A stretch of 38,704 bases of DNA. Source: Desulfobulbaceae bacterium (lineage in GTDB: Bacteria; Desulfobacterota; Desulfobulbia; Desulfobulbales; SURF-16). The notes beneath the pieces were generated by a model that saw nothing but the letters and a program-made list of their open reading frames with translations, had not been told where the DNA came from and did no database searches. Each line of letters starts with the position of its first letter. The first letter of the stretch is position 1. The stretch is taken from positions 1 through 38,704 of the forward strand of contig JAHLLM010000050.1 in NCBI GenBank assembly GCA_020444175.1, written 5' to 3'. Below, one piece after another: positions 9,690 through 24,465 of the stretch. Both the position numbers and the translations under genes were made by a program.

Positions 9690-9748
9690 GAAAGAGTTTA
9701 TTCGGCCGGTTTATCTACAGAAGATTGATAATCTCGCAAAAAAGTCCG

Positions 9749-9840
9749 AAGCTGACCATTTGCCAACGTAATATCAGCACGTTACATGCGCTGCGGCGGC
9801 GGTTGAGCGATTTTTTACCCTCTAGGGCACAAATGAGAAA
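9749..9840 (+). repeat. Diverged cobalamin-cluster repeat, copy A
   Basis: Lies between cbiA and cbiC. The core 9753-9810 aligns with 24381-24438 at roughly three-quarters identity without gaps, and looser similarity continues to 9840. A shared reading frame gives KLTIxQxNIxxLxAxRRR in both copies; here the frame stays open to a TAA at 9845-9847, with a possible TTG start at 9725 (40 codons). The copies share three synonymous differences (AAG/AAA, CTG/TTG, ATT/ATC). Whether this is a peptide gene, an RNA element or a mobile remnant is not settled. Confidence 0.6.
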
Positions 9841-9865
9841 CCGTTAAAATTAAGAGAGAACACGT

Positions 9866-22517: not shown

Positions 22518-22780
22518 AGAGGAGTCCGCCTTGGAATTAGAATTTTTTGTTTTTCACGAAGGACTAAACATATACAGACTATCAATCTGCATTCTTTTCT
22601 TTAACTGGTAATCTGCATCGCAACAAGAAACAATGAGAAATTTTCTTGAAAAAACAGGAGTAAGGGAGCAGGAATTATGCCTTCTTTTGCAGGCTGAAAC
22701 AGTCGGTTCCCTGTATAGGGGAGAGGTATGAAAAAGAAATATTGACAGTAGCGGGGCGCTTTGTTTATTATTCTTGGTTA
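22518..22780. other. Intergenic region upstream of the riboswitch
   Basis: No credible gene. It should contain the promoter of the cobalamin operon. TTGACA at 22742-22747 followed at 17 bases by TATTAT-like sequence (around 22765-22772) is a plausible promoter placing transcription start just before the riboswitch. Confidence 0.45.
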
Positions 22781-22960
22781 CTGAGTAGCTTCGGGTGCCC
22801 TTTGAAGGGATAATCGGGAAGTCCGGTGGAAGACCGGCGCTGACCCGCAACCGTAAGTGGGGACGAAAGCCGCAAAATGCCACTGTCTGTTTCAAGCAGA
22901 CGGGAAGGAGCGGCCTGTAGGATGATCCATAAGCCGGAAGACCGGCCCGGAGTGATGACG
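22781..22960 (+). ncRNA. Cobalamin (adenosylcobalamin) riboswitch
   Basis: The conserved aptamer core is present: GGTGCCC at 22794-22800, GGGAAGTCCGGTG followed by GACCCGCAACCGTAA (about 22842-22856), a peripheral hairpin CGTCTGCTTGAAACAGACAG-type stem (22884-22904 region), and the B12 box AGCCGGAAGACCGGCC at 22932-22947. It precedes cbiET and should repress the operon when cobalamin is plentiful. The hairpin and U-tract at 23031-23068 suggest transcriptional control. Confidence 0.95.
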
Positions 22961-23030
22961 AGCAGACAACGAGGCTTTTTGAGTCAGTTCGGCAAAATAT
23001 TCTGGATTCCTTCCACGGTATGTTGTCTGA

Positions 23031-23145: not shown

Positions 23146-24354
23146 ATGCCCTCACTTTTTATAATCGGTGTTGCAGAAGAATCTTTGGCAACGGATGTGG
23201 CCGCTGTTGTTGCAAAATGCGGGCTTGTTGTTGCCGCCCAAAGACATAAAAGGCTCGTTCCCCAGGGAGCTGCCGGTCGATTTGTGGCTATTTCACCCAT
23301 TGATGAGGCAATGGATGCCGTAGGCAAAGGGCTTGCGGAAACGGATGTGGCGGTGTTGGCCAGCGGCGATCCGTTTTTTTTCGGTATTGCCAGGATGCTC
23401 TCGGAGAAATTCGGCAGGGAGAAAATAACGGTTTATCCAGCCCTTTCCTCCATGCAGCTCGCCTTTTCCCGTTTTCACCTCTCCTGGGATGATGCTTGCT
23501 TTATAAGCCTTCACGGTCGGCAGCCGGATCTGGCAGCTTTGATGGCTGGTCATAAGGTCTGCATCCTGACGGATAAAACAAACACTCCCGGAGCTATTGC
23601 CCGCTTGTTGCTTGATGTTTTTCATGGGGTGGACGATTTTGAGGTGGAAAAATCTATTCAGGTCAAGGTGGGTGAAAATCTGGGACTGCCTGAAGAAAGA
23701 TGTGTTCGTGGTTCACTGGCTGAAATAGCTCAAATGAGTTTTGCTCCGCTCAATGTGATGATCATGCTTCGCGCCCCGCTTGAAAAGAATTCTGTTTTCG
23801 GCCTGCAGGAGAGCGAGATTGCTCACAGCAGGGGGCTGATTACCAAAAATGAGGTGCGGGCCGCAACACTCCATGCCCTGTCTCTCCCTGTAAAAGGGGT
23901 TTTATGGGATGTGGGTGCCGGCAGCGGTTCCGTGTCAATAGAGGCCGCGCGGCTCAGTCCCGGCTTAAACATTTTTGCCGTGGAAAGAAACAAGCCGGAA
24001 GTTGCCAATATCAAGAAGAATGTTCGACAATTTCAGACCTATACCGTTCGTGTTGTCAGCGGGCTTGCTCCTGACGTGCTCGAAAAATTGCCTGATCCAG
24101 ACAGGGTTTTTGTCGGAGGCTCGGGAGGACAGCTTGATAAAATTCTACAAACCGCGGCCAAAAGGCTTCGCCCTGGCGGCAAGATCGTTGTCAATGGGGT
24201 GCTTGAAAAAACCGTGACCGAGGCGCCTGAATTTTTGAGACGTAATGGTTGTTCCGTGCAGATAAGTGAAGTGAGTGTAAAGCGCCGGAGTTATCCGGGC
24301 ACAATTAATGCCCAGGAATATAATCCGATTTCGATAATAACCGGCTGGAAATGA
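23146..24354 (+). CDS. cbiET: Precorrin-6Y/cobalt-precorrin C5,C15-methyltransferase, CbiE-CbiT fusion
   Basis: 402 residues. The N-terminal CbiE half (about 1-205) is a tetrapyrrole methylase with VAVLASGDPFFFGIARML and YPALSSMQLAFSRF. The C-terminal CbiT half has SRGLITKNEVRAATLHAL and the class I SAM-binding GVLWDVGAGSGSVSIEAARL, then FVGGSGGQLDKIL. Together they methylate C5 and C15 and decarboxylate the acetate side chain on C12. The fused form equals CobL in length. The gene is the first after the cobalamin riboswitch and terminator. No strong ribosome binding site precedes the ATG. Confidence 0.95.
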   Translation: MPSLFIIGVAEESLATDVAAVVAKCGLVVAAQRHKRLVPQGAAGRFVAISPIDEAMDAVGKGLAETDVAVLASGDPFFFGIARMLSEKFGREKITVYPALSSMQLAFSRFHLSWDDACFISLHGRQPDLAALMAGHKVCILTDKTNTPGAIARLLLDVFHGVDDFEVEKSIQVKVGENLGLPEERCVRGSLAEIAQMSFAPLNVMIMLRAPLEKNSVFGLQESEIAHSRGLITKNEVRAATLHALSLPVKGVLWDVGAGSGSVSIEAARLSPGLNIFAVERNKPEVANIKKNVRQFQTYTVRVVSGLAPDVLEKLPDPDRVFVGGSGGQLDKILQTAAKRLRPGGKIVVNGVLEKTVTEAPEFLRRNGCSVQISEVSVKRRSYPGTINAQEYNPISIITGWK

Positions 24355-24355
24355 G

Positions 24356-24433
24356 ATGGATTCGCGATACGGTTTAAAATTGACCATCCGTCAACATAAT
24401 ATCAACGAGTTATATGCGTGTCGGCGGCGGTAG
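24356..24433 (+). other. Short ORF (25 codons) within cobalamin-cluster repeat copy B
   Basis: An ATG one base after the cbiET stop opens MDSRYGLKLTIRQHNINELY followed by ACRRR and a TAG. The second half matches the frame in copy A (KLTIxQxNIxxLxAxRRR). At the TAG, copy A has TTG (Leu), so this frame may be a truncated version of a longer peptide. Translation is unproven. Confidence 0.3.
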
Positions 24434-24465
24434 AGCATCTTGTTGCGGGACCGTCAAATAAGAAA
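24377..24465 (+). repeat. Diverged cobalamin-cluster repeat, copy B
   Basis: Lies between cbiET and cbiL. Its core 24381-24438 aligns with 9753-9810 upstream of cbiC; CGGCGGCGGT and TAATATCA are identical in both. Looser similarity runs to CAAATAAGAAA at 24455-24465. Each copy ends about 25-32 bases before the next cobalamin gene. Confidence 0.6.

Follow-up and report, generated by a model that had tools for sequence, protein, structure and literature searches.

The MITEs of prokaryotes are, in the general account given in PMC10969869, gene-less elements of less than 500 bp that possess terminal inverted repeats, reside in intergenic DNA and are transcribed into stem-loops; their young copies are bordered by target duplications, and they are thought to be mobilised in trans. 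The Correia/NEMIS elements of Neisseria are palindromic, measure about 100-155 bp and contain open frames in their 107-bp form, and the 155-bp form possesses an internal IHF site and binds IHF in vitro (PMC2229807). The idea that a host bending protein is needed has been raised, in the same account, for this 155-bp Correia element.

Here, we describe a dispersed element in the genome of a Desulfobulbaceae bacterium, as seen from a stretch of 38,704 nucleotides (the window). Geobacter uraniireducens, the bearer of the Chunjie MITE, belongs to the same wider phylum as this host. The Chunjie MITE likewise resides in an operon and is present in many copies, but differs, in a comparison by description only, in measuring 178-235 bp (PMC10969869). 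On the features listed above, as PMC10969869 presents them, the host element is like prokaryotic MITEs in general. It shares its size, its palindromic sequence, an IHF-like site and open frames with Correia/NEMIS as described in PMC2229807, but possesses other ends (a TA motif is found in Correia) and resides in another host, and a further point of difference is the position of its IHF-like box, which in the 103-bp form falls at the midpoint. The ERIC, RUP and Rickettsia palindromic elements are likewise small and of high copy number, some with open frames, whereas their termini, so far as that source describes them, differ from those of the host MITE (PMC2229807). We found no paper describing this MITE family in the open-licence literature searched.

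The initial annotation of the window had pointed to two homologous segments in spacers of cobalamin gene clusters, and had offered a small Arg-rich peptide, an RNA control element or a mobile remnant as their nature. We present evidence that both segments are very probably old insertions of a non-autonomous MITE that measures 103 bp, or 121 bp where an 18-bp block is added. Its ends would be recognised in trans by an IS1182-like DDE transposase of elements of about 1.9 kb, and it very probably came to lie at the cobalamin sites by chance.

Results

Two worn copies in the window

The two segments lie on the same strand and are 78.6% identical across 56 bp, and 71 of 103 aligned positions are identical when the whole units are compared, which bears out the homology first claimed for them. 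Their borders were fixed from the terminal repeats and flanking duplications of other family copies. Copy A, a long form of 121 bp, occupies positions 9726 to 9846 of the forward strand, and copy B, a short form of 103 bp, positions 24354 to 24456 of the same strand, the evidence for each being family hits from nhmmer and the model, an alignment and a flank table. As previously annotated, the neighbouring genes belong to cobalamin synthesis: copy A is found in a 176-bp spacer with a cobB/cbiA-type gene on one side and a cbiC-like gene on the other (matches under curated cut-offs), and copy B starts on the final base of the stop codon of cbiET, with cbiL downstream. A cobalamin riboswitch (Rfam, 106 bits) is located at 22776-22964, upstream of cbiET, the gene that copy B follows.

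The additional 18-bp block of copy A, ACCCTCTAGGGCACAAAT, occupies positions 9817 to 9834 of the forward strand in the alignment, its exact edges being ambiguous; it lies 12 bp from the right end and is matched by the block pattern on the minus strand at 9812-9838. The terminal repeats of copy A are partly decayed, with a possible worn duplication agat / aaat, and the left end of copy B is decayed, with a possible worn duplication aatg / aata. Terminal inverted repeats were undetected as a pair in both decayed copies, and perfect flanking duplications are absent at both in the flank table. With worn ends, imperfect duplications and a fold close to that of shuffled sequences (z 0.58, 0.28, -0.86, 0.61), both window copies are old insertions.

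A family of about 200 copies in the host genome

The host genome (5.42 Mb in 90 contigs) was searched with the segment, the terminal patterns and a sequence model. The segment gave at least 42 matches (40 of 170 candidates scored), and the model at least 150 (150 of 2,495 first-look candidates scored, all of which matched). With no more than two mismatches, the right-end pattern occurs at 210 sites against 4 for its reversed control, and the left-end pattern at 112 against none. Within 142 stretches (0.69 Mb, window included) we delineated 178 non-overlapping copies, 153 of them full-length, a count that omits L049, a duplicate of L036, and L200, which lies inside L058. The window pair thus belongs to a dispersed family some 200 copies strong, and the third option of the initial annotation, a mobile remnant, was the right one.

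The full copies range from 99 to 125 bp, 90 of the 153 measuring 103 bp and 16 measuring 121 bp; the long form consists of the 103-bp unit plus the 18-bp block near the right end. The unit remains below 500 bp and contains no transposase gene. Its imperfect terminal inverted repeats are TGATGGTCTCGCAAAAA / TGACGGTTTCGTAAAAA, and two subfamilies start with TGATGGTCTCGC and TGACAATCTCGC. Perfect target duplications of 4-5 bp flank 106 of the 153 full copies, compared with 8.7% when flanks were re-paired at random, and the preferred target is AT-rich, roughly AA..TT. One element sequence is present 17 times unchanged, and these probably represent recent copies and recent movement. Tandem copies with a common 4-5 bp spacer occur at L030 and L032, and likewise in G023, a genome from a different family of the order. 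At five of its contig ends (L050, L106, L107, L108 and L109) the host genome breaks off inside a copy of the element, suggesting that the repeat probably breaks the assembly.

In L036:2973-3092 the 18-bp block is found near the left end instead, as a mirror image. The 18-bp unit (ATTTATGCCCTNNAGGGT and complement) can therefore be found near either end of the MITE (window 9812-9838; L036:2973-3092), and it is also present inside an apparently unrelated inverted-repeat element of about 160 bp (beginning AGCAGGCTGTTGAAAAAC) at L036:3164-3322. Genome-wide, its pattern has 54 matches at no more than three mismatches, nine of them in one identical context, and the unit may be mobile in its own right. 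A further dispersed repeat, whose core is CCCGCNNNNGCGGGA, lies close to MITE copies at L036:3325-3392 and, near contig ends, in L108 and L109.

Relatives of the MITE and a candidate mobiliser

The model matched in 19 of the 58 genomes searched, a figure that includes the host, and in most of the other matching genomes the scores were weak (best E 4e-8 among the matches listed); the only other genome of the genus had no match to the model. G023 contains 280 sites that match the end of a 103-bp relative exactly (loci L078 and L091-L105), the most of the five genomes given that pattern, and several of its copies are tandem, with spacers of 4-5 bp.

A scan for the terminal repeats across named sequences returned 109 stretches. 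Among the 80 listed, 72 have titles of Deltaproteobacteria, Desulfo-, Syntroph- or like groups, and the remainder are titled Proteobacteria (5), bacterium (1), Draconibacterium (1) and Mariprofundus (1). In 35 of these 80, paired ends delimit a unit of 81-166 bp flanked by a 4-5 bp duplication; a duplication of at least 4 bp was the condition of entry, so that this count is silent on how frequently one is lacking. The same terminal repeats bound several MITE families of 81-166 bp (L203, L214, L238, L246 and others), which are mostly unlike inside; families with these common ends reside chiefly in Desulfobacterota-type genomes.

At L259, in a Desulfobulbaceae genome, the terminal repeats also pair at 1894 bp, with a CTCA duplication, and the element so delimited encodes a 580-aa DDE transposase. 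This protein, the probable mobiliser, matches the IS1182 family (NF033551) best, at 161.3 bits, yet below the curated cut-off of 270 bits, and it is called IS1182-like only since its score falls short. A search of 257 genomes of the order with the transposase gave matches in 19, including the window's own. At 16 of 30 transposase-bearing loci, a terminal-repeat pair surrounds a transposase match spanning at least 520 aa, and 10 of the 16 possess a perfect 4-5 bp duplication; in this count each end was allowed at most two mismatches, one genome contributes several of the loci, L320 and L335 overlap, and L319, like L320/L335, is interrupted. The transposase of L311 (genome G207, of the window's order) is identical to that of L259. 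The MITE and the autonomous elements of about 1.9 kb share their ends and nothing else.

Two other sources of a mobiliser were rejected. A first set of loci yielded only three end pairs, of 229-599 bp, with no full-length mobiliser, and tblastn of the transposase was negative there; and at the two ISNCY (NF033593) loci, L086 and L087, only unpaired end matches with four mismatches were found and no such inverted repeat.

The host genome itself possesses a single broken member of the IS1182-like family, at L133:516-1814, which matches the transposase at 53% identity over residues 1-318. It codes for residues 1-322, contains an in-frame TAG, and lacks the C-terminal part as well as a flanking duplication. 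Neither the host genome nor G023 yielded an intact member of this transposase family, which leaves room for mobilisation of the MITE by a transposase of some other family. We consider this improbable, since the ends, the duplication length and the taxonomic range all match the IS1182-like elements, of which a broken member persists in the same genome.

A recurrent box at the midpoint

At its midpoint the family possesses a box, GTAACTTGTTGATATT, that is close to the consensus of IHF sites, which we take to be WATCAANNNNTTR. In copy A the box, TATCAGCACGTTA, is located at 9772 to 9784 of the forward strand and has one mismatch to this consensus; in copy B it is located at 24400 to 24412 of the same strand and fits (TATCAACGAGTTA). 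The box TATCAACAAGTTA fits the consensus in 106 of 153 copies, against a background of 57 consensus sites in 673,278 bp, or one per 11.8 kb; among the 79 copies of 103 bp that fit, 78 have it centred on position 53. Proteins closest to IHF alpha and beta are present in the host, slightly under the NCBIfam cut-offs.

The consensus is perfect in 8 of 17 relatives and does not fit in the other 9, a set that includes two poor or partial copies (L068 and L073) and two members of a single genus (L069 and L077). Among 14 relatives (L068, L073 and L082 excluded), all picked by whole-unit similarity, identity to the consensus of the window family averages 0.83 and 0.74 at the ends and 0.77 over the central 17 positions, and falls to 0.56 at positions 77-86 and 0.42-0.43 in the arms. 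A test of spacing, in which the specified positions of the site were expected to be less divergent than the four free ones, ranked the true offset 1st to 6th of 58 depending on the threshold, a result that is at most suggestive of an IHF-type constraint.

The box was also sought in the 35 MITEs found by their ends alone. A first test, whose pattern had been widened (W) after the sequences were seen, placed it near the middle in 8 of them; a repeat with the family's own box, at up to three mismatches, again gave 8 of 35, compared with a mean of 0.05 and a maximum of 1 after shuffling of the cores. Seven of the eight are interrelated (60-99% identity inside the ends) and L242 stands alone, so that they amount to two independent cases besides the window family. 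Other results, like the nine relatives without a fit, speak against the IHF reading. A perfect consensus site is found in only 2 of the 35, near the middle in both, and in six of seven MITEs of 112 bp TGAAA or CGAAA stands in place of the TTGATW that the consensus requires. Among 14 insertion sequences, the broken one of the host included, one contains a consensus site, which is internal. We regard the central box as probably real, and its IHF function as a hypothesis.

Genomic context and the cobalamin genes

Gene calls for context and orientation were based on ORF-length heuristics. By these, 134 of the 153 full copies lie between predicted genes, 7 at stretch edges and 12 within predicted ORFs of 100 codons or more (6 when the limit is 130 codons), an internal fraction to be set beside the ERIC, RUP and Rickettsia elements as PMC2229807 describes them. 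The gaps occupied follow what intergenic bases would predict, with 87 co-directional (78.5 expected), 29 divergent (35.0) and 18 convergent (20.5). An orientation bias of 27:11 in the first 38 co-directional sites was not upheld in the larger set (51:36, p 0.13) or under a stricter ORF length (53:40, p 0.21).

The 38.7-kb window contains two copies, compared with 1.3-1.5 expected per window at genome density, and on this chance-level density an association of the element with cobalamin genes was rejected. The cobalamin-linked function that had been entertained for the pair is unsupported, about 200 copies being scattered through the genome, the outcome that the initial annotation had named as refuting it. 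Among 22 genomes of the same family, 10 possess cbiC, the window's own included, and cbiA adjoins cbiC in 5 of the 9 others; the element had no match in the cbiA-cbiC spacers of these five relatives, which represent other genera and whose spacers differ anyway. In two of the relatives (L119 and L118) the spacer contains another inverted-repeat-looking sequence, as if the cbiA-cbiC gap were prone to taking up small repeats. We found no special meaning of the element for cobalamin genes.

Control element and peptide readings

A role in the control of the cobalamin operons, at the RNA or DNA level (as attenuator, processing site, IHF-dependent switch or promoter), would suit the location of both copies between co-directional cob genes, and that of copy B downstream of the riboswitch. 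Additionally, the minus strand of the two young copies tested folds into one long hairpin (z -3.5 and -5.9), and three sigma-70-like promoter matches, each 9/12, overlap copy B at 24351-24424 (shuffles 0.7, sd 0.9). However, the cobalamin operons hold only 2 of at least 178 copies, at about chance density, the window copies fold like their shuffles, neither contains a terminator-like site, and the element was not found in the cbiA-cbiC spacers of the five relatives. At gathering thresholds Rfam has no match over 9726-9846 or 24354-24456, the riboswitch being its sole match in the window. Together, these results make such a role very improbable, and the RNA control element of the initial annotation goes unsupported. 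Covariation was rejected as support for a structure, as just one of five predicted pairs has a two-sided change.

The common peptide frame is as the initial annotation described it. It reads KLTICQRNISTLHALRRR in copy A and KLTIRQHNINELYACRRR followed by a stop in copy B, with three synonymous differences (AAG/AAA, CTG/TTG and ATT/ATC) and a TAG in copy B where copy A has TTG; the frame of copy A stays open until the TAA at 9845-9847. In 46 divergent copies the values at codon positions 1, 2 and 3 were 0.16, 0.18 and 0.24, a small apparent third-position excess. A gene for a small Arg-rich peptide, to which this slight excess, the frame open through the core of copy A and up to the TAG of copy B, and the relative L078 (frame open across the core, but with a TAA upstream and mostly different residues) might point, has a negligible chance of being the explanation, because the frame is intact in only 95 of 153 full copies, 31 have a segment whose length is not divisible by three, and two further frames of the family consensus, one per strand, are almost as open. 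We read the open frame as a feature of the element's sequence and not as a gene.

Discussion

The reading of both segments as MITE insertions is borne by about 200 dispersed copies with inverted repeats, 4-5 bp duplications, identical members and mostly intergenic sites, and by an insertion-sequence family of the same order with matching ends and duplication length. Judging from the common ends, the IS1182-like DDE transposase would recognise those of the MITE in trans and move the element. The two cobalamin-operon copies would be chance insertions into AT-rich spacers, presumably tolerated because they lie between genes. Several observations stand against this account: no intact transposase was found in the host genome although identical copies imply recent movement, nor in G023, matches are weak in most other matching genomes and absent from the only other genome of the genus, only the ends are common with the insertion sequences, the five relatives compared at the cbiA-cbiC spacer are of other genera, the duplications in the window are imperfect, and the broken insertion sequence of the host has none.

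The element is of an ordinary kind, a high-copy MITE together with its probable mobiliser, newly recognised as far as the literature searched extends. Its recognition closes the false lead of a cobalamin-specific peptide or RNA. Copies of about 103 bp will recur elsewhere in the host genome, where they can mimic leaders, terminators and small genes.

It is possible, with our own judgement leaning against it, that the family represents an old, order-wide lineage of miniature elements rather than random deletion products. Selection would then keep the ends, a fixed length and the midpoint box GTAACTTGTTGAWATT, a near-consensus IHF site, and a bend at this site would unite the ends of the 103-bp DNA for transposition. 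If the box is functional, the family would make it simple to test whether transposons as short as this depend on a bending protein of the host.
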